DNA of 64,000 nucleotides from assembly GCF_022808715.1 (NCBI RefSeq), contig NZ_JAKZKX010000001.1, positions 186,001 to 250,000 on the forward strand. The letters run 5' to 3'. Below, piece after piece: positions 4,719 through 19,885 of this stretch. Numbering within the stretch: position 1 is the stretch's first letter; each line of letters begins with the position of its first letter. The notes below the pieces were generated by a model. The model was not told the DNA's origin. It searched no databases and was given only the letters and a program-made list of their open reading frames with translations. Origin of the DNA: Fundidesulfovibrio agrisoli. Lineage in GTDB: Bacteria > Desulfobacterota > Desulfovibrionia > Desulfovibrionales > Desulfovibrionaceae. The position numbers and the translations under genes were made by a program.

Positions 4719-6023
4719 CTAGTTCTGCTTGCGCAAATCGAGAATCCGCTTGGCCTTGCCTTCGGAACGCTGGATGGAGCGCGGCTCCACCAGTTTGACC
4801 ATGGCGGTCACGCCCAGGTAATCCTTGATGTTCTTGACGATCTTGCCTTCGATGCGCTGCAAGACCTTGATTTCGTCGGAGAAGAGCTTCTCGTCCACCT
4901 CGACCTGGATCTCCAGGGTGTCCAGGTTGCCCTCGCGCTTGACCACCAGCAGGTAGTGCGGTGCCAGGCCCTCGGTCTCCAGCAGGATGGATTCGATCTG
5001 GCTGGGGAACACGTTGACGCCGCGGATGATGAGCATGTCGTCGCTGCGGCCCATCATGCGGTGCACGCGCGCGGTGGTGCGCCCGCAACGGCAGGGCACC
5101 TTGTTCAGGATGGTGATGTCGCGGGTGCGGTAGCGGATGAGGGGCTGGGCCTCCTTGGTGAGCGTGGTGATGACCAGCTCGCCCTGTTCGCCGGGGGGGA
5201 GCACCTCGCCCGTCTCCGGGTCGATGATCTCGACCAGGAAGTGGTCCTCCATGATGTGCAGGCCGTTCTGGGCGTTGTGGCATTCGATGCCCACGCCCGG
5301 GCCCATGATCTCGGAGAGGCCGTAGATGTCGATGGCGGTGATGCCCATCTTGTCCTCGATGTCGCGGCGCATCTCCTCGGTCCAGGGCTCGGCCCCGAAG
5401 ATGCCGATGCGCAGGTCCAGGTCCTTGAAGCTGAAGCCCGCCTCCTGGGCGGCCTCGTGCAGCACCAGGGCGTAGGAGGGCGTGGAGCAGATCACGGTGG
5501 GGCCGAAGTCCTTGAGGAGCATCACCTGCCGCTTGGTGCCGCCGCCGGATACGGGCACGATGGTGGCCCCCAGCTCCTCCGCGCCGTAGTGCGCGCCCAG
5601 GCCGCCGGTGAACAGGCCGTAGCCGTAGGCGTTGTGGATGATGTCCTTGGCGGAGGCCCCGGACGCCACGAAGCAGCGGGCCATGAGCTTCGCCCAGTTG
5701 CGCACGTCGCGGTGGGTGTAGCCCACCACGGTGGACTTGCCCGTGGTGCCGCTGGAGGCGTGGATGCGCACCACGTTCTCCTTGGGCACGGCGAAGAGGC
5801 CGAAGGGGTAGTGGTTGCGCAGGTCCTGTTTTTCGGTGAACGGAAGGAGCTTCAGGTCGGCCAGGGAGCGGATGTCGCTCGGCTTGATGCCGCGCTCGTC
5901 GAATTTCTGGCGGTAGAAGCCGACATTGGCGTACACTCGCTCCACAAGGGCCTGGAGCCGCTTGAGTTGCAGGGCTTCCAGGTCCTCCCTGGGCAGGGTT
6001 TCCATCTCCACGTCGAAAATCAT
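4719..6023 (-). CDS. paaK: Phenylacetate-CoA ligase family protein
   Basis: This 434-residue adenylate-forming enzyme would activate phenylacetate or a related aryl acid to its CoA thioester. The phosphate-binding motif [16 protein letters not shown] begins near residue 88. [13 protein letters not shown] matches the PaaK form of the AMP-binding core, and the YRTRDIT motif and a C-terminal mobile domain follow. Length is normal for PaaK. No downstream phenylacetate degradation genes (paaABCDE, paaG, paaZ) are nearby. In anaerobes such ligases often serve aryl-acid salvage linked to indolepyruvate or arylpyruvate oxidoreductases, so the substrate is open. It is transcribed leftward, with the ACT gene as second cistron. 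Confidence 0.88.
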
Positions 6024-10287: not shown

Positions 10288-11052
10288 TTAAATTCCCATG
10301 ATGCTGAAGCCGGAGTCCACGTGGATGACCTCTCCGGTGACGCCGCTGGAGAGCCCGGAAGCCAGGTAGACGGCCGTGCCCGCCACGTCCTCCTGGGTGA
10401 TGTTGCGCTTGAGGGGGGCGCGCTCCTCCACGATGGGCAGGAAGCCCTTGAAGCCGGTGATGCCCGAGGCGGCCAGGGTCTTGAGCGGCCCGGCGCTCAG
10501 GGAGTTCACGCGGATGCCGCGCGGGCCCAGGTCGGCGGCCAGGTAGCGCACGCTGCACTCCAGGGCGGCCTTGGCCACGCCCATCACGTTGTATGATGGC
10601 ACCACCTTCTCCGCGCCCAGGTAGCTCATGGTCATGACCGAGGCCCCGTCGGCCAGCAGCCCGTCGAAGCCCTTGCACAGGGCCACCAGCGAGTAGGCCG
10701 AGACGTCCAGGGCCAGGGCGAAGCCCTCGCGGGTGACGTCCATGAAGCGGCCCTTGAGGTCATCCTGGCGGGCGTAGGCCACAGAATGCACCAGGATGTC
10801 CACCCCGCCCCATTTTTCAGACACGGTCTTGGCGGAGGCGGCGATGTCCTCGTCGCTGGTCACGTCGCACTGGAAGGTGAACTCGCCGCCCAACTCCTCG
10901 CTGATGGGCTCCACGCGCTTGCGGATGGCGTCGCCGGGGTAGCCGAAGGCCAGCCTGGCCCCCTGGTCCTTGAAGGCCTTGGCCACGCCGTAGGCGATGG
11001 AGCGGTCGTTGGCCACGCCGAATATCAGGGCTTTCTTGCCTTGCAGAAGCAT
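10288..11052 (-). CDS. fabI: Enoyl-[acyl-carrier-protein] reductase, NADH-dependent
   Basis: This 254-residue SDR-fold enzyme carries out the last reduction of each fatty-acid elongation cycle in the cytoplasm. The nucleotide site is GVANDRSIAYGVAKAF near the N-terminus. The FabI-type catalytic pair lies in SYLGAEKVVPSYNVMGVAKA (Tyr-x6-Lys), and the C-terminus has the SGVTGEVIHVDSG strand. The ATG at 11052 is preceded by AAGGAGA; the longer open frame to 11358 is not needed. It stands apart from the other fab genes and is followed by tRNA-Ser and ffs on the same strand. Confidence 0.95.
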   Translation of the reverse strand: MLLQGKKALIFGVANDRSIAYGVAKAFKDQGARLAFGYPGDAIRKRVEPISEELGGEFTFQCDVTSDEDIAASAKTVSEKWGGVDILVHSVAYARQDDLKGRFMDVTREGFALALDVSAYSLVALCKGFDGLLADGASVMTMSYLGAEKVVPSYNVMGVAKAALECSVRYLAADLGPRGIRVNSLSAGPLKTLAASGITGFKGFLPIVEERAPLKRNITQEDVAGTAVYLASGLSSGVTGEVIHVDSGFSIMGI

Positions 11053-11602: not shown

Positions 11603-11638
11603 GCAAACAAAATCCCCCGCCCGGCTCGGGCGGGGGAT
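11603..11638 (-). terminator. Terminator of the etf/acyl-CoA dehydrogenase operon
   Basis: A 12-bp perfect stem (11612-11623 with 11627-11638, three-base loop) is followed on the minus strand by TTTGTTTGC. It lies about 28 bases past the etfA stop and closes the four-gene leftward operon. Confidence 0.85.
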
Positions 11639-11666
11639 CACGGAACAATGAACGATGCCTGGCGGA

Positions 11667-12689
11667 CTAGGGCAGCAGCGCCAGGACCTTGCGCATAACC
11701 TCGAAGGCGTCGGCCACGTAGAGCACGTCCGCCTTGCCCTGGGCCCAACCGCAGTTGGGGTCCAGGTTGACGGCCCGGCGCTCGCCGATGAAGCGCCAGC
11801 CGACCACGTGGGGCTCCTCGCCGTGGCAGCAGGTGGCCAGGCCCTTGGGGTGGCGCGGCGTGGAGCCGGTCTGGCCGACCTGGTGCATGTGCGACAGGAA
11901 GGACAGCACCTGCTGGCCCTCGCCCGAGAGGTCCACCAGGGACTTGGAGGTGCCCAGCGACCCCTGGGTCTTGTTCAGGAAGCTCAGGATGATCTCCTCG
12001 GCCTCCCCGGCGTGGGCCGCGCCGTCGGCCTGTTTCTTGGTCCAGCCAGCGCCAGCCACGAAGAGCAGGGCGGCGTCGGGGCGGATGGTCTGCTCCTCGG
12101 CGGAGGGGCAGATCATGCCCGTGACCTGGGTGCGCACGCCGCCGGGAATCTCGGCGGAGACTGCGGTCACGCTGGCGGAACCGGCCGCGCCCGCATAGGC
12201 CGCGAAGCAGCCGCTGGAGACGCTCACGAACCAGGGGCGCTCCTTGCGGGTCAGCTCGGCGTACATGCGCTGGCGGTAGTACCAGCGGGTGACCACGGGC
12301 TTGCCGCCGGAAGCGGCCAGGGCCGTGACCGAGGTATCGGAGACGCCGCCCACGCGGGCGGCCGCGCCGGGCAGCACCCGGCTCATGCGCGGGGTGGCCG
12401 CGCCGATGACGATGCCCGCGCCGGTCGCGCCGAACAGGGCGGCCAGGGCGGCGGCGTCCGTGGCGTAGCGGGGCTGGGCGAAGTCCGGCCCGGAAACGCC
12501 GTAAACGGCTTCCGCGCCGCATCCGGCCAGGGAGTCGGCGGCGGCCTGCACGGCCTCGCCCACAAGGCCCACGGCCAGGGGCGCGCCGAGCTGCTCGGCC
12601 AGGGTCTTGGCCGCGGTCAGGGCTTCCAGGGAAGCCTTGGAGAGCGAACCGTCACATTCGGTCTGGGCTACGAAGAGAATCTTGTCCAT
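11667..12689 (-). CDS. etfA: Electron transfer flavoprotein alpha subunit (EtfA/FixB-like), divergent
   Basis: The protein has 340 residues with an N-terminal ETF domain (MDKILFVAQTECDGSLSKAS) and a C-terminal domain that should bind FAD between EtfA and EtfB. The VGQTG motif is recognisable near residue 277. The usual GASR segment is replaced by VDLSGEGQQ, the ISGAIQH region by CCHGEEPHVVGW, and the AIN-DP-APIF strand by AVNLDPNCGWAQG. Cofactor contacts may therefore differ from textbook ETFs. It is the last gene of the module acyl-CoA dehydrogenase-FixCX-EtfB-EtfA and probably receives electrons from the dehydrogenase. It might instead be called FixB. Confidence 0.8.
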   Translation of the reverse strand: MDKILFVAQTECDGSLSKASLEALTAAKTLAEQLGAPLAVGLVGEAVQAAADSLAGCGAEAVYGVSGPDFAQPRYATDAAALAALFGATGAGIVIGAATPRMSRVLPGAAARVGGVSDTSVTALAASGGKPVVTRWYYRQRMYAELTRKERPWFVSVSSGCFAAYAGAAGSASVTAVSAEIPGGVRTQVTGMICPSAEEQTIRPDAALLFVAGAGWTKKQADGAAHAGEAEEIILSFLNKTQGSLGTSKSLVDLSGEGQQVLSFLSHMHQVGQTGSTPRHPKGLATCCHGEEPHVVGWRFIGERRAVNLDPNCGWAQGKADVLYVADAFEVMRKVLALLP

Positions 12690-12779
12690 GTATGCCTCCG
12701 GCTCCGGGCGGGGTCGCCGCCGTCATGCCGACGCTGGAAATTTATCGGGTCGTCCCGGAGCGGGGCTCCGGGCTGCGGC

Positions 12780-13586
12780 CTAGGCGCTGAGCCAGTCCAC
12801 GATCTCCTTGGCGATCTGATCCACCGGGGCGTCCTTGACCACGCGGGTCTCGCGCTTCTGGCTGGGGATCTGCACGCCGGAGTATTCGGGGCCCTTTTCG
12901 AGCTTCACGGGCTTGGCCTTCTGCAGCGCGGGCATCACCAGGCGCATGTTCTGCATGCCCACCTGGGGGTTGTTGGGGGGCTCGGGCAGTTCGCCGGTGG
13001 CCCAACCGAACACGGCGGGCGCGCCGGAGACGACCGAATCCTGGTAGCTGCCGCCCTCCACGCGCTCGAGCACGCGCAGCGCGCCGTCAGCCAGGATCTC
13101 CAGCTTGTCCACGCCCTGGAACTGCTCGAAGATGCCCAGCTTCTCGCCGATGACCTGCATGGTGGCCCCGGCGCCGCGCGAGGCGGACTGCCAGCCGCCG
13201 AACACCAGCAGCCTGGAGGTGTCCAGCCCCGGAATGGCGGCGATGGCTTCGGCCAGGGCCGCGCCGGTCTCATGGGCGTCGGCGAAGCCGCTGGCGGGGC
13301 CGTCCAGCACCACCAGCTCGAAGGGGACCTTCTGGGCGATGGTCATCATCACCTGCTGGAGCTTGGCCTTGGGGCCCATGCTCACCAGCCAGACCTTGCT
13401 GCCCGGCACGTTCTTGGCCAGGTTGGCGGCCTCGAACAGGGCGTGCCCGGCCCAGGGGTCCAGGATGGCGGGGAGCATCAGCTCGTTCTTCAGGCCCCAG
13501 CCCGCGGGGCCCTGCACGGGCTCCAGGGTCTGCAGCGGGTCGGGGACGATGCCGCCGCAAACGACGATATGATATCCTGCACTCAT
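12780..13586 (-). CDS. etfB: Electron transfer flavoprotein beta subunit (EtfB/FixA-like), divergent
   Basis: The protein has 268 residues from the ATG at 13586, preceded by GAAGGAGA. The order of elements follows EtfB: an N-terminal strand (HIVVCGGIVPDP), a segment ending WAGHALFEAANLAK, VWLVSMGPKAKLQQVM, and the ERVEGGSYQDSVVSGAPAV region. Sequence is far from standard EtfB: the usual GADRAILV and GKQAID motifs read VPFELVVLDGPA and FGGWQSASRGAGATMQ. Together with EtfA it would form the electron carrier between the acyl-CoA dehydrogenase and the FixCX-type oxidoreductase. The intergenic gaps (41 and 90 bases) fit one transcript. Confidence 0.8.
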   Translation of the reverse strand: MSAGYHIVVCGGIVPDPLQTLEPVQGPAGWGLKNELMLPAILDPWAGHALFEAANLAKNVPGSKVWLVSMGPKAKLQQVMMTIAQKVPFELVVLDGPASGFADAHETGAALAEAIAAIPGLDTSRLLVFGGWQSASRGAGATMQVIGEKLGIFEQFQGVDKLEILADGALRVLERVEGGSYQDSVVSGAPAVFGWATGELPEPPNNPQVGMQNMRLVMPALQKAKPVKLEKGPEYSGVQIPSQKRETRVVKDAPVDQIAKEIVDWLSA

Positions 13587-13627
13587 AGAATCTCCTTCAA
13601 TATCAGGGGAAAGGCCCTGCGGAAAGA

Positions 13628-15484
13628 TCAGTTCTCGACGGAATGCAAACCGCCAGCCCCGGCCCTGAACTCCACGTTGGTTCTGCCGGGCTCGGTGGGG
13701 TGGGGCTTGGAGCAGTTCCAGACGCAGGCGCCGCAGTGGACGCACTTCTCCCGGTCGAACAGGGGCGCGCCGCCCTCAGGGTCGGGCGCGATGGCCTGGC
13801 CGGAGCACATGTCGATGCAGATGCGCTCGCGGCACTTGAGGCAGACGTTCGGGTCCGCGAAGACCACGTGGTCGGCGTAGCCGCCGGGGGCCTGCACCTT
13901 GCCGCCCATGAGCAGGGCGTCCTGGTGGGAGACGAGCAGCTGGCCGTCGTACTCGATGGAAGGCCAGCCCACGCGGTCCATGAGCGCGTCGTGCAGCGGC
14001 TCGCCCTTGGCGGCGCACTCCTCGCGGATGGCCTCGATCTCCTGGGCGCTGAGCCGCGCGGAGTAATACTCCTCGATGGAGGGCACGCGCTGGTTGGGGT
14101 CGCGGTGGTCGCCGGGCATGTTCAGCCTGCCCGTGGTGAAGCCGGAGAGGGCCATGCCCGCGAGCCCCTGGATGAAGCCCTTGCCGAAGCCGTCGCGGGC
14201 CTTCTCGGCGATCTTGGCCTCGGCCTCCAGCTCGGACTCCCTGCGGCGCTTCACGTAGGCGCGCTCCAGGTTGTACTTGGTGAAGGGCTGGTTCTGCTTC
14301 ATGAGCTTGAGCACGCCCTCTGCCAGCATGACGCCGGTGGTCCAGGCCTCGTCCACGCCCGAGCCGGTGAGCACGTTGGTGGAGCCTGAACCCTCGCCGA
14401 TGCGCGCGAAGCCGTCGCCAACCAGGTGGGGTTCGCCCCTGCGCCCGGATTCCAGCAGCGATTTGGCCCCCCAGGAGCGCATCTTGCCGCCCTTGAGGTG
14501 CTTCCAGAGGTAGGGGTGCGTCATCCAGTGCTGCAGGTAGCGGTAGGCGGTGCGCACCGGGATATCCAGCCAGGAGGGCACGAAGATGCCCAGGGAGGCC
14601 ACGCGGTCCGGCAGCACGTACAGGAAGCCGAAGATGTCGGGCTCGGGGTAGCCGAAGGTGTGCAGCACGTAGCCTTCGGGCAGGTCGCAGTCCTCGGGGA
14701 GGTCCACCACCATCTTCATGCCCAGGGCCCAGTCGCGCTGGGAGTTGCCCTCGGGCAGGCCCAGGATCTCGTCCAGGTTGCGGCCAACGGGGCCGACAGG
14801 GCCGTCGCCGATGACGGTCAGGGCGGCGCGGATGTCCATGCCGGGCATGAAGCAGGCGTCGGGGTTGCCCTTCTTGTCGACGCCCTGGTCGGCCAGGCGC
14901 ACGCCCACGACCTTGCCTTCCTCCATGATGACCCGGGCCACGGGCATGGAGGGCCAGATCTGGGCCAGGCCGGAGCCCATCACCTGGGAGCCGGCCCACT
15001 GGTTGAACTGCCCGATGGAGAACACGTAGCCCGGCTCCTTGCAGAGGAAGGGTGGAATGTAGGGCAGCTCGAAGGCCTGGTCGCGGCAGCAGGAGGTGTA
15101 TTTCCCGGCGAAGCCGAGGGCCTTGTCCGCGAGGCCCAGCAGCTCCTGGCGGCGGCTGGCCCCGTGCGGGTCCAGCAGGTAGGCCACGGTCTCGTGGGTC
15201 ACGGGGGCGCACATGGGCACCTGGGCCGGGTCGAAGCCCGGGAAGGACTCCTTGATGCCGCGCGCCTTGCTGACCACGCCGGAGACGCCGAAGCCGATGT
15301 CGTCGGCGCGCTCGTAGCAGATCACCTGGGGCGGCATCCCGGGCATGACGGCGCTCTCAAGCAGGGGAGCGCCGTTTTCATCCGCGAGGCCGCGCGTCAG
15401 CGTGGTCAGGAACCCGGCCATGGCCGGGCCAAAGCCCACGCAGACGATGTCGAGCTCCATGCTCTGCCGTTCGATCTCGGACAT
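13628..15484 (-). CDS. FixC-FixX fusion: ETF:quinone oxidoreductase-like flavoprotein with ferredoxin domain
   Basis: This 618-residue protein begins with a dinucleotide-binding segment (VCVGFGPAMAGFL near 13-25), continues through a FixC/ETF-QO-type FAD domain (DGFARIGEGSGSTNVLTGSGVD) and ends in a FixX-like ferredoxin domain. The iron-sulfur part has CxxCx4CxxxC (CLKCRERICIDMC) and then CVHCGACVWNC, eight cysteines in FixX spacing. ETF-QO-type enzymes pass electrons from ETF into the menaquinone pool; FixCX does so as part of FixABCX. The gene lies between the dehydrogenase and etfB. The dinucleotide motif is GxG followed by PAMAG rather than plain GxGxxG. Confidence 0.82.
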   Translation of the reverse strand: MSEIERQSMELDIVCVGFGPAMAGFLTTLTRGLADENGAPLLESAVMPGMPPQVICYERADDIGFGVSGVVSKARGIKESFPGFDPAQVPMCAPVTHETVAYLLDPHGASRRQELLGLADKALGFAGKYTSCCRDQAFELPYIPPFLCKEPGYVFSIGQFNQWAGSQVMGSGLAQIWPSMPVARVIMEEGKVVGVRLADQGVDKKGNPDACFMPGMDIRAALTVIGDGPVGPVGRNLDEILGLPEGNSQRDWALGMKMVVDLPEDCDLPEGYVLHTFGYPEPDIFGFLYVLPDRVASLGIFVPSWLDIPVRTAYRYLQHWMTHPYLWKHLKGGKMRSWGAKSLLESGRRGEPHLVGDGFARIGEGSGSTNVLTGSGVDEAWTTGVMLAEGVLKLMKQNQPFTKYNLERAYVKRRRESELEAEAKIAEKARDGFGKGFIQGLAGMALSGFTTGRLNMPGDHRDPNQRVPSIEEYYSARLSAQEIEAIREECAAKGEPLHDALMDRVGWPSIEYDGQLLVSHQDALLMGGKVQAPGGYADHVVFADPNVCLKCRERICIDMCSGQAIAPDPEGGAPLFDREKCVHCGACVWNCSKPHPTEPGRTNVEFRAGAGGLHSVEN

Positions 15485-15502
15485 GTGTACTGCGCCTCCG
15501 GC

Positions 15503-17557
15503 CTAGAGCGGGTAATCCAGGGCTTCGGGAATCATCACCTGGGTCAGCGCCTGGGCCGCGCGGTCCTTGGCGAGGGCGGCCCCGGCCATGCTGCGGTCAA
15601 GCTGGGAGCGCAGGGCGTCGAAGGCGTCCAGCTCCTCGGCGGCCTGGGGGCCGAAGCCGTAGACCATGCTGGCGCACACGCGCGAGGCCTCGCCGGCGGC
15701 GCGGGCGGCCTGGACCAGGGCCAGGTCGGTGAAGAAGCCCAGGGTGCCTTCCAGGCCCTCGGCCACCACGGCGTTCTCGGGGCCCTTCTCGGCCAGCTCC
15801 ATCACGTCGTTGATCTGGCAGTAGGAGGCCATGAGCCAGCACAGGGCGTCGGCCATGGGGAAGGTCACGTTTTGGCGGCGGTTGTGATAGAGGCGCGCGC
15901 CGGAAGGATCCTTGGCGCGGTGCAGGAATTCGATGGTCCAGAGCCAGAGGCCCAGGCCCTTGGCCACCACGGTAGCGCCGGTCTCGGGCTTGGCTTCGCC
16001 CAGGGCCGCGAACTGCTCGATGATGATGCGCAGCCGGGTCAGGAAAACCTCGTTGGTCATGGTGATGGAGAGCTGGCGGCGCTGCACGGCCTCGGGGCCT
16101 TCATAGGTGGCTTCGAGCTGGGCGTCGGTCCACTTGTAGAAGAGGAAGCCGGGGCAGTCCTCGGTGATGCCGTAGCCGCCCATGAGGGCCAGGGCCTCGC
16201 GCATCACGGTGGCGCCGTTGCCTGTGTTCCAGAGCTTGCAGGCCGGGCAGAGGATGTTGGCCAGGGATTCGAGCAGGGCGTAGCTCACCAGGGTGTCCTG
16301 GCCCAGTTCGGCGAAGCGGGCTTCGTCGCGGGTGGGGGCGGCCTCCATCTGGAGATACTCGATGGCCTGCTTCTCAACCTTGCGCAGGGCGGTGAGCTGC
16401 GACTTGGGGCCGCAGATGCCGCGCTCGGCGAAGACCTTGTCCTTCTCCTTCTCGGTGGGGTCGAGCTGGTCGAACAGGCGGGCGGTGGCGAAGCCCAGGG
16501 AGGCTCCGGCCTCGCCGGCGGCCCAGATTTCCACCAGGCGCAGCACGGAGTCGGGCTTGGCCTGGAGGCCCAGTTCGTACTTGGGCGTGCCGGGTTCGGA
16601 GGCGTCGCCGCCGCGGAAGCGCTGGCGCTGGTAGCGGATCACGGGCTCCACGGCGGAGAGCAGCTTGGCCGTGGTCATCAAGGCCACGGGCACGCGGGTG
16701 CGGTGGAACACCGCGCCGATGATCTCGGAGTGGGTGAAGTTGGGCACGATCACGCCGTCCTTCACGGTGTAGCCGCCCACGATGCGGTTGGCGGGCACCT
16801 GCACGTTGAACACCGGGTCGCGCGTGGAGGAAAGCTGGTGCACCATCTTGAGGGTGGGCGCGCCCCGGTCGAACAGGCCGGGGTCGGTGTCCTCGACGAT
16901 GACGATGCAGGAGGACTTGATGCGCGGGTCGTCGGTGTCCACGGCGCAGGTGGCGAAATTGGCGAAGTCCATGCCCGTGATGAAGCGGCCGCGCTTGTCC
17001 ACCTGGAGGATGGGCTCCTCGCCTTCCTCCCACTTGGCCACGCGCAACTTGCCCACCAGGGTGTTGGTCTCCACGCCCACGTAGGGCAGGGGCTCGGTGA
17101 GGGCGAACGCGCCGCGGAAGGGGGCGCGGTCCTCGCCGGGCAGGGGCGGCACGCAGCGGCCCATGTACTCGTCACGCTGCTCGGTGGTCCCGCGCTCGTG
17201 GATGGGGGCCAGGGCCAGGTTGGTGGCCAGGGAGCAGGTGGCGGCGCCGGCGTCGACCCAGGCCAGCTCGAAGGCGACCAGGGCCAGGGCCAGGTTCTTG
17301 GGCCCGTCGATGAAACCGCCCTGGTGGGGGTCCATGAACAGGGCGGTCAGGCCGGAGGTGTCGAAGGCCTCCAGCAGTTGGGCTTTGTGGTCGGTCCATT
17401 CATGAGTCTTCCGCGCGCCCTCGGCCACGAGCCGGGCCACCAGACCGCGCGCCAGGGATCTGGCGGACTGGACAACCATCTGGATGTCGTAGCGGTCGGT
17501 GAAGCGCCACATGATCTGACGGACGTCGTCGCCCGGCAGGGTACGGAGGGTATCCAT
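15503..17557 (-). CDS. Acyl-CoA dehydrogenase family protein, long form
   Basis: The protein has 684 residues from the ATG at 17557; usual acyl-CoA dehydrogenases have about 380-400 and many longer ones about 580-600. The middle shows the flavin-domain signature (AFALTEPLPYVGVETNT), and the conserved C-terminal segments ALALMGGYGITEDCPGF and ATYEGPEAVQRRQ carry the likely catalytic-base Glu. A helical C-terminal extension of about 170 residues follows. It should oxidise an acyl-CoA to the enoyl-CoA and reduce the ETF encoded two genes downstream. The substrate is unknown and no ligase, hydratase or thiolase is adjacent. A promoter lies 62 bases upstream. Confidence 0.85.
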   Translation of the reverse strand: MDTLRTLPGDDVRQIMWRFTDRYDIQMVVQSARSLARGLVARLVAEGARKTHEWTDHKAQLLEAFDTSGLTALFMDPHQGGFIDGPKNLALALVAFELAWVDAGAATCSLATNLALAPIHERGTTEQRDEYMGRCVPPLPGEDRAPFRGAFALTEPLPYVGVETNTLVGKLRVAKWEEGEEPILQVDKRGRFITGMDFANFATCAVDTDDPRIKSSCIVIVEDTDPGLFDRGAPTLKMVHQLSSTRDPVFNVQVPANRIVGGYTVKDGVIVPNFTHSEIIGAVFHRTRVPVALMTTAKLLSAVEPVIRYQRQRFRGGDASEPGTPKYELGLQAKPDSVLRLVEIWAAGEAGASLGFATARLFDQLDPTEKEKDKVFAERGICGPKSQLTALRKVEKQAIEYLQMEAAPTRDEARFAELGQDTLVSYALLESLANILCPACKLWNTGNGATVMREALALMGGYGITEDCPGFLFYKWTDAQLEATYEGPEAVQRRQLSITMTNEVFLTRLRIIIEQFAALGEAKPETGATVVAKGLGLWLWTIEFLHRAKDPSGARLYHNRRQNVTFPMADALCWLMASYCQINDVMELAEKGPENAVVAEGLEGTLGFFTDLALVQAARAAGEASRVCASMVYGFGPQAAEELDAFDALRSQLDRSMAGAALAKDRAAQALTQVMIPEALDYPL

Positions 17558-17667: not shown

Positions 17668-18564
17668 CTACAGCGCCAGGGTTTGCCCCGTAAGTTCCCG
17701 GTATGCCTCCAGGTACTTGCTGCGGGTACGCTCCGCCACCTCGGCGGGCATGTGCGGGGCCGGGGGCTGCTTGTTGAAGCCCACCGACTCCAGCCAGTCG
17801 CGCACGTACTGCTTGTCGTAGCTGGGCTGGGCCTTGCCGGGCTGGTACCCGGCCGCGGGCCAGAAGCGCGAGGAGTCGGGGGTGAGCACCTCGTCGATGA
17901 GGATGAGCTCATCGCCGATCATGCCGAACTCGAACTTGGTGTCCGCGATGAGGATGCCGCGCCCGGCCGCGTACTCCCGGGCCTGGGAGTAGATGGAGAG
18001 GGCCGTGTCCTGCACTTTGGCGAAGAGCTCCGGCCCGATCATCCCCTTGGCCTTGTCCAGGGTGATGTTCTCGTCGTGCTGGCCAAGCTCCGCCTTGGTG
18101 GAGGGCGTGAACAGCGGGGTCTCCAGCTTGTCGGCCTCCACCAGCCCGGCGGGCAGTTTGTGGCCGCAGACCATGCCGGTGGCCTTGTAGTCCTTCAGGC
18201 CGGAGCCGGTGATGTAGCCGCGCACGATGCACTCGATGGGCAGGGGCTTGGCCTTGCGCACCAGCACGGCGCGGCCTTCCAGCAGGTCGGCGTGCTCCTT
18301 GAGGGGCGCGGGGAAGTCGGCGGGTTCGGTGGCCAGCAGGTGGTTCTTCACCAGGTGTTTGAACTTCTCCATCCAGAAGATGGTGATCTTGTTCAGGATG
18401 ACGCCCTTGTACGGAAGCGGGTCCGGCAGGATGACGTCGAACGCGGAGATGCGGTCGGTGGTGACGATGAGCAGCACGTCGTCCGCGATCTCATAGATGT
18501 CGCGCACCTTGCCCCGCGAAACCAGCGGGTATTGTTTGATGTCGGTGGTGGTAGCCACGCGCAT
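17668..18564 (-). CDS. purC: Phosphoribosylaminoimidazole-succinocarboxamide synthase
   Basis: This 298-residue SAICAR synthetase couples CAIR with aspartate using ATP in de novo purine synthesis. Family marks are the N-terminal RGKVRDIYE loop, SAFDVILPDPLPYKGVILNK, and ECIVRGYITGSGLKDYKATG. The length matches the longer, eukaryote-like bacterial PurC type. It is the second gene of a leftward pair with hisD, 16 bases downstream of it. Purine and histidine synthesis are metabolically linked through AICAR, which may explain the pairing. Confidence 0.96.
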   Translation of the reverse strand: MRVATTTDIKQYPLVSRGKVRDIYEIADDVLLIVTTDRISAFDVILPDPLPYKGVILNKITIFWMEKFKHLVKNHLLATEPADFPAPLKEHADLLEGRAVLVRKAKPLPIECIVRGYITGSGLKDYKATGMVCGHKLPAGLVEADKLETPLFTPSTKAELGQHDENITLDKAKGMIGPELFAKVQDTALSIYSQAREYAAGRGILIADTKFEFGMIGDELILIDEVLTPDSSRFWPAAGYQPGKAQPSYDKQYVRDWLESVGFNKQPPAPHMPAEVAERTRSKYLEAYRELTGQTLAL

Positions 18565-18580
18565 GGGAGCCTCCGGGTGA

Positions 18581-19885
18581 TTATTCGTTGCGGCACTCGA
18601 CCGAGCGGGCGTGGGCCTCCAGGCCCTCCAGCCGCGCCAGGCGCGCTATCTTGGCCCCGTGCCTGCGGGTGTAGGCGGCGGGGGCGGCGATGACGCTCGA
18701 CTTCTTGGTGAACGTCTCCACGGACAGCGCCGAGGAGAAACGCGCCGTGCCCAGGGTGGGCAGCACGTGGTTGGGGCCGGCGAAATAGTCGCCCACGGGT
18801 TCGGGGCAGGCGGTGCCCATGAAGATGGCCCCGGCGTGGCGGATGTCGCCCAGCAGGGTCCAGGGGTCGGCCACGGCCAGCTCCAGGTGCTCGGGGGCCA
18901 GCAGGTTCACGGCCTCCACGCCAGCGGCCATGTCCGGCACGACCACCACGGAGCCCCAGTCCGCCAGGGCCTTGCGGGCGATCTCGCCGCGCGGCAGGAT
19001 CTCCAGCTGGCGAACGAGCTCCTTCTTCACGGCCTCGGCCAGGCCGCAGTCGTCCGTGACCAGGATGGAGGCGGCCAGGGGGTCGTGCTCGGCCTGGGAG
19101 AGCATGTCCGCCGCCAGCCAGGAGGCAGGGGCGGTCTTGTCCGCCAGGATGACGATCTCCGAAGGCCCGGCGATCATGTCGATGCCCACCTGGCCCACCA
19201 GCAGCCGCTTGGCCGTGGTGACGTAGATGTTGCCCGGTCCGGCCAGCACGTCCACAGGGGCGATGGTCGGAGTGCCCAGCGCTAGGGCCGCGATGGACCA
19301 GGCGCTGCCGGTGCGGTAGATTTCCGTGATGCCCAGCAGGGCGGCGGCGGCCAGGATGTAGGGGTTGAGCGTGCCGTCCGCGCGCGGGGGGGAGACGGCC
19401 ACGATGCGCTCCACGCCGGCCACCTGGGCGGGTATCGCGTTCATCAAGAGCGAGGAGATCAGCGGGGTCTCGCCGCCCTGGCCCCCGGGCACGTAGAGGC
19501 CCACGGAGTCAACGGGGCGCACCATCTGGCCCAGGATGGTGCCGTCCTCCCGGGTGGTCCACCAGGATTTCTCCTTCTGGGACTCGTGGAAGCTGCGGAT
19601 GTTGCCGATGGCTTCCTCTATGATGGCGCGGTCGTCGGCGGGAATCCGGGCCAGGGCCTCGGCGATGTCCCCGGCGGGGACGGGCAGCATGGCCGCCGTG
19701 AAGGACGGGCAGTCGAAACGTCTGGTATACTCCGCGAGGGCTTCGTCACCCCGGGAGGCGACGTCCTCGAGAATGGCGCGAACCCTGGACTCCACGGCCT
19801 GGTCGGGGTTCTCCCGGGCCTTGAGTTTCTTGAACAGGGGGGCGAAATCCTCGGGACGCTGATATGTGAGCGATGGACAGGGCAT
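18581..19885 (-). CDS. hisD: Histidinol dehydrogenase
   Basis: This 434-residue zinc enzyme oxidises L-histidinol to histidine in two NAD-dependent steps. Recognisable are YVPGGQGGETPLISSLLMN, the GPGNIYVTTAKRLL nucleotide-site loop, AGPSEIVILAD, and the LAPEHLELAV motif that carries the catalytic Glu-His pair. Length is normal. The start MPCPSLTYQRPEDF is the natural N-terminus. It is the first gene of the hisD-purC pair; 19886-20025 must hold divergent promoters for hisD and the MFS gene. No other his gene is nearby. Confidence 0.96.
   Translation of the reverse strand: MPCPSLTYQRPEDFAPLFKKLKARENPDQAVESRVRAILEDVASRGDEALAEYTRRFDCPSFTAAMLPVPAGDIAEALARIPADDRAIIEEAIGNIRSFHESQKEKSWWTTREDGTILGQMVRPVDSVGLYVPGGQGGETPLISSLLMNAIPAQVAGVERIVAVSPPRADGTLNPYILAAAALLGITEIYRTGSAWSIAALALGTPTIAPVDVLAGPGNIYVTTAKRLLVGQVGIDMIAGPSEIVILADKTAPASWLAADMLSQAEHDPLAASILVTDDCGLAEAVKKELVRQLEILPRGEIARKALADWGSVVVVPDMAAGVEAVNLLAPEHLELAVADPWTLLGDIRHAGAIFMGTACPEPVGDYFAGPNHVLPTLGTARFSSALSVETFTKKSSVIAAPAAYTRRHGAKIARLARLEGLEAHARSVECRNE

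Follow-up and report, generated by a model that had tools for sequence, protein, structure and literature searches.

The closest described systems to the locus analyzed here are the mitochondrial-type chain, leading from an acyl-CoA dehydrogenase (ACAD) through ETF to ETF:quinone oxidoreductase (ETF-QO), the FixABCX system and EtfABCX of Thermotoga, the bifurcating EtfAB-Bcd and CarCDE systems, and the caiA-fixABCX genes of E. coli. ETF-QO is a FAD, quinone and iron-sulfur protein with a single C-terminal [4Fe-4S] cluster coordinated by four cysteines. FixX, on the other hand, carries two [4Fe-4S] motifs (PMC6085437), and group-2 bifurcating ETFs are marked by RXGV and GXXSPTXV in their small and by RPXFGG in their large subunit (PMC10734219). 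The present locus unites a large ACAD-like protein, a flavoprotein with a C-terminal ferredoxin domain (FixCX) and an EtfB-EtfA pair in a four-gene module that is a distinct branch of this known type of electron chain. A sequence-only reading of this DNA had left such a branch open. No close characterised orthologue of the four proteins was found; NCBIfam has no model near its cut-off for any of them, and searches of the literature and of curated families turned up neither a function nor a dedicated family or publication for the module.

Genomic organization of the module

The window, i.e. the whole stretch of 64,000 nucleotides that was analyzed (G000:C1:186001-250000), belongs to a 3.94 Mb genome whose relatives are Desulfovibrionaceae. 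The module lies on its minus strand in the order ACAD (684 residues, 15503..17557; ORF, Pfam, model and alignment), FixCX (618 residues, 13628..15484; ORF, Pfam and profile), EtfB (268 residues, 12780..13586; ORF, Pfam and model) and EtfA (340 residues, 11667..12689; ORF, Pfam and PDB matches). Coordinates and Pfam domains agree with the ORFs and families first assigned, and homologues back the chosen starts of all four genes. The intergenic gaps of 18, 41 and 90 bp are compatible with a single transcript. The module had also been credited with its own promoter and terminator. A strong terminator-like hairpin of 13 pairs, 10 of them GC, with a T-rich tail indeed follows EtfA (11611..11639, minus strand; sequence scan), although such sites are not enriched as a class (4 found against 3.5 expected in shuffles), while a consensus scan detected no sigma-70-like promoter in the module region. 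A promoter of its own is thus unproven, and read-through into the module is possible because the two genes upstream of it, purC and hisD (17668-19885, minus strand), have the same orientation. They also adjoin it in about a dozen loci of Desulfovibrionaceae type, suggesting that the module's position is old in this family, to which the synteny is restricted. Downstream, and also on the minus strand, the next gene encodes a FabI-type enoyl-ACP reductase (10288..11052), missed in the sequence-only reading, which is outside the module and starts ~0.6 kb past the end of EtfA, and a phenylacetate-CoA-ligase-like adenylate-forming enzyme is found ~5.6 kb downstream of EtfA (4719-6023).

The ACAD and FixCX proteins

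The ACAD passes the Pfam cut-offs for its N- and C-terminal domains (PF02771 and PF00441) and is so divergent that sequence matching covers these two pieces only, the PDB hits with acyl-CoA dehydrogenases being weak (1e-10). Structure comparison of its AlphaFold2 model (mean pLDDT 86) reports hits with many ACADs (Z 25-28.6), including 3owa_C (Z 28.6, 529 residues aligned, 18% identity). The large ACADs 3owa_C, 2z1q, MMPA-CoA dehydrogenase, VLCAD, FadE5 and ACAD9 match nearly the whole model at 15-19% identity, whereas ~375 residues of small ACADs such as MCAD align to residues 15-505, the catalytic part of the module protein containing roughly 100 extra residues. The model thereby predicts a member of the acyl-CoA dehydrogenase superfamily with a VLCAD/FadE-type fold made up of N-terminal, beta and C-terminal helical domains. 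The catalytic base, Glu486 within a YEGP motif, is present in all 42 aligned sequences, which come from many phyla. Some relatives reach ~735 residues through a variable insert of ~50 residues after residue 634 (window numbering), with recurrent Cys near the C terminus; this insert, absent from the window ACAD, is possibly a metal site. Elsewhere, a 2504-codon frame (G687:C75:65106-69170) returns two ACAD-domain and two ETF-domain matches and a 2700-codon frame (G702:C1:1526480-1529179) two ACAD-domain matches; both might encode giant fused ACAD-ETF proteins.

The flavoprotein had been described as a FixC-FixX fusion. Its ferredoxin domain is indeed present, Pfam identifying Fer4 as well as the ETF-QO quinone-binding domain (PF21162, 34.9 bits for a cut-off of 27.7), but the flavoprotein part is far closer to ETF-QO than to FixC. 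ETF-QO is hit by sequence in the PDB at 6e-26, and a profile of 51 FixCX relatives matches human ETF-QO (2gmh) with an E-value of 4.9e-40 as against 2.1e-5 for Thermotoga FixC; E. coli FixC is likewise a weak relative. In the ferredoxin domain, the pattern C-x2-C-x4-C-x3-C ... C-x2-C-x2-C-x3-C places eight cysteines in two motifs in all 51 sequences, instead of the four that hold the single cluster of ETF-QO, and the domain probably accommodates two clusters. Since ETF-QO itself is a FAD, quinone and iron-sulfur protein, these sequence features make ETF:quinone oxidoreductase with an eight-cysteine ferredoxin domain the better name for FixCX.

The EtfB-EtfA pair and the question of bifurcation

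Both ETF subunits exceed the Pfam cut-off for the ETF domain PF01012, and EtfA falls below the cut-off for the ETF_alpha FAD domain. In the PDB, EtfB weakly matches one solved ETF by sequence (CarD, 4e-4), and the best solved relatives of EtfA are the EtfA subunits of the Bcd and Car complexes (CarE, 4e-8), so that their description as highly divergent holds. The EtfB model (pLDDT 86) nevertheless reaches Z 20-23.6 against the small subunits of solved ETFs. Structure comparison was also tried as a way of telling bifurcating from non-bifurcating EtfB and was abandoned, all ETFs falling within a few Z units. The pair had been said to have lost the standard motifs, which is true in part: among 40 EtfA relatives, QVGQTG is retained in 30, SR..VD is replaced by SKSLVD in 32, and CCHGEEPH stands in place of the usual GISG-x-IQH signature in all. 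These sequences argue for an alpha-FAD site that is retained but altered and would not be the standard bifurcating one. In a Burkholderiales-labelled bin, the module's EtfB and EtfA are fused in a single open frame (L129:9844-11724).

A new branch of bifurcating ETFs, splitting NADH oxidation between ferredoxin and a quinone or enoyl-thioester as FixABCX or EtfAB-Bcd do, would suit the combination of an ETF with FixC/FixX-like parts and an eight-cysteine ferredoxin domain, the sharing of an operon with an ACAD, as seen in the Bcd and Car systems, and the kinship of EtfA with the subunits of those complexes. However, RXGV is found in only 1 of 33 module small subunits, its position holding LKN-type residues, GXXSPTXV in none of the 33, and RPXFGG in none of the 40 large subunits, of which 37 have an RWYYRQRM-type segment keeping the arginine alone. 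The absence of these motifs is indicative rather than decisive, as E. coli FixAB is likewise devoid of the group-2 motifs that were searched. Together with the ETF-QO-like nature of FixCX, the near-unrecognizable similarity to E. coli FixAB and CaiA, and a spread over many phyla unlike that of an anaerobe-only system, it makes the FixABCX-like bifurcation that had been envisaged quite unlikely.

Distribution and co-occurrence

The ACAD-FixCX-EtfB-EtfA set is conserved at roughly 55-75% identity across Desulfovibrionaceae, Verrucomicrobiota, Sumerlaeota, Omnitrophota, Planctomycetota, Acidobacteriota and others. Searched with FixCX as the query, the contigs of one genome per prokaryote species yielded 482 related places. 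Going by the titles of their sequence records, the best 80 of these (62-74% identity) belong to Desulfovibrionaceae, Verrucomicrobiota, Sumerlaeota, Omnitrophota, Hydrogenedentota, Planctomycetota, Methylomirabilota, Acidobacteriota, Gemmatimonadota, Myxococcota, Fimbriimonadales and others. The module thus occurs in about ten or more phyla, and the earlier idea of an energy-conserving pathway of anaerobes or sulfate reducers is too narrow; the tests gave no sign of energy conservation either. On contigs of sufficient length, all four genes usually occur as a set in the same order. The tree of the concatenated proteins largely follows the phyla but also has some mixed clades, suggesting mainly vertical descent within phyla and possibly some transfer. 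Distribution is patchy in the window's own phylum (7 of 395 sampled genomes), and no match was found on plasmids.

In other genomes, too, the genes co-occur very strongly. In the class (297 genomes), EtfA is strongly matched in 80 genomes and the ACAD likewise in 80, of which 78 have both (Fisher p 1e-66, with no correction for relatedness). Among the exceptions, G029 and G032 have EtfA only, the module being broken at a contig end, and the two ACAD-only genomes (G286 and G292) are 82-89% complete. In one genus (g29), the ACAD is unlinked from the ETF genes, lying for example ~50 kb off in G170, yet is retained, and the pairwise distances of the four proteins correlate (r 0.56-0.74). The ACAD is therefore a true partner rather than a chance neighbour, and these results support a real, functionally linked unit of four genes that forms a distinct branch of each family.

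Metabolic context

The window's genome returned no ETF and no ACAD beyond those of the module, no Thiolase_C match and one weak crotonase (ECH) match, and hence does not show the thiolase and enoyl-CoA hydratase pair expected of a beta-oxidizing genome. Among 18 module-bearing relatives (the window's genome and 17 others), every genome gave a single ACAD match and no more than two crotonases, most of them weak, and Thiolase_C exceeds the family cut-off in only one (G018). In a set of 30 module genomes, of which 28 lie outside the named Desulfovibrionaceae, 14 are devoid of Thiolase_C and about half contain just one ACAD match, low-scoring and of the module type; a single ETF pair is present in about half of the 26 tested among them. 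A sole ETF and a sole ACAD without thiolase, found again in many of the relatives tested, speak against beta-oxidation, and in hosts without thiolase or a second ACAD the module does an isolated step. That it would instead be the first step of ordinary beta-oxidation or of branched-chain acyl-CoA oxidation, with the other enzymes elsewhere in the genome, would agree with its fold and electron chain, with the Thiolase_C match in the other 16 of those 30 mostly cross-phylum genomes, and with the two acyl-CoA ligases that adjoin the module at two loci (L057/L060). Since neither the window's genome nor 16 of the other 17 module-bearing relatives has a thiolase above the cut-off, crotonases are few or weak, and no beta-oxidation neighbour is conserved, this explanation is distinctly improbable.

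No neighbour is conserved across phyla at the module loci. Nevertheless, genes of fatty-acid metabolism recur beside the module: within the window's genus, FabI follows it downstream (the window and L033-L036); three genomes of Opitutae type carry FabV upstream of it (L063, L070 and L080); in a genome of Omnitrophota, EtfA is followed by a FabL-like reductase (L117); and further loci have the two acyl-CoA ligases already mentioned (L057/L060), an acyl-ACP-phospholipid-acyltransferase-like ligase domain nearby (L122), and AcpP next to the ACAD (L049). By comparison, 40 arbitrary stretches of module-bearing genomes (525 kb) contained none of these specific genes, only generic FabG/SDR matches. 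The recurrence in several independent lineages is a suggestive hint at the substrate class, in a survey with few independent lineages and some queries drawn from the module flanks. L080 also has, right after EtfA, a FabV fragment (11911-12156) that is apparently a duplication remnant, the intact FabV lying upstream of the ACAD. The planctomycete CA13 carries a canonical-looking etfB-etfA pair with a FadE-type ACAD that are divergent from the module (L093:1187-4980, minus strand).

Dehydrogenation of acyl-ACP by back-tracking, to make unsaturated fatty acids with quinone as the electron sink, would use as its substrate the product of the FabI, FabV and FabL-like enzymes adjoining the module in different lineages, would suit the AcpP at L049, and has a precedent for the back-tracking in Helicobacter FabX, a different protein (PMC8626469), but it is distinctly doubtful as these adjacencies may be partly due to chance and NMO-family (FabK/FabX-like) genes are found in all 59 relatives, with or without the module. 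A complementary pattern between the module and these NMO genes had been considered and was dropped on the same count.

Proposed function

We consider it reasonably probable that the module relays electrons, without bifurcation, between an acyl thioester and the quinone pool, and that it performs one isolated step, probably in the metabolism of fatty acids or lipids rather than at the start of beta-oxidation. The electron path, quinone partner and acyl-thioester substrate that we infer would form the chain acyl/2-enoyl thioester, ACAD, EtfAB, FixCX and (mena)quinone: the ACAD would interconvert the acyl thioester and its 2-enoyl form, EtfAB would carry electrons between ACAD and FixCX, and FixCX would exchange them with (mena)quinone at the membrane. 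As the potential of menaquinone is about -74 mV and that of the acyl/enoyl-CoA couple is near 0 mV, enoyl reduction is the easier, downhill direction on textbook potentials with menaquinone, and the relay could run either way. Given the divergence of the ACAD, its substrate is possibly of another kind, non-CoA and non-fatty. A cross-phylum quinone-linked acyl-thioester dehydrogenase or enoyl reductase serving fatty-acid or lipid biosynthesis, for instance by inserting a double bond through back-tracking that begins with the product of enoyl-ACP reductase, is a more specific and unlikely, though conceivable, version; if true, it would amount to a respiratory-chain-coupled step in lipid synthesis and not degradation. 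Being conserved across many phyla at about 60-70% identity, and often the only ETF and ACAD of the cell, the set must have a valuable role other than beta-oxidation. ETF genes of sulfate reducers and Verrucomicrobiota are likely read as fatty-acid degradation or Fix genes and would need re-annotation, and Solidesulfovibrio and Pseudodesulfovibrio are culturable hosts of the module.

Comparison with known electron-transfer systems

The mitochondrial-type chain, with VLCAD, ACAD9 or MCAD as the dehydrogenase followed by ETF and ETF-QO (2gmh), comprises the same three components and folds as the module, in which FixCX matches ETF-QO including the quinone domain and the catalytic Glu of the ACAD is in place. 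However, all module components are remote from it (15-19% identity to the large ACADs), the catalytic part of the ACAD is ~100 residues larger, the ferredoxin domain has eight cysteines and the FAD signature of EtfA is altered. In addition, the module is one four-gene unit, and many of its hosts are devoid of beta-oxidation partners. With FixABCX and Thermotoga EtfABCX, it shares EtfB, EtfA, FixC-like and FixX-like parts and the two iron-sulfur motifs of FixX, but its FixC and FixX parts are fused and nearer to ETF-QO, the ACAD is within the unit, the bifurcation motifs are absent, and E. coli FixA and FixB are barely detectable. The bifurcating EtfAB-Bcd and CarCDE systems likewise combine ETF and ACAD in one operon and provide the best PDB matches of EtfA; in contrast, the module has a large-type ACAD, an extra quinone oxidoreductase subunit and no group-2 motifs. 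Lastly, the E. coli caiA-fixABCX set, which reduces crotonobetainyl-CoA, also brings together ACAD, ETF and FixC/X genes and constitutes an enoyl-CoA reductase system, whereas its profile scores with the module proteins are near the noise floor except for FixC, and the module has no cai genes beside it.
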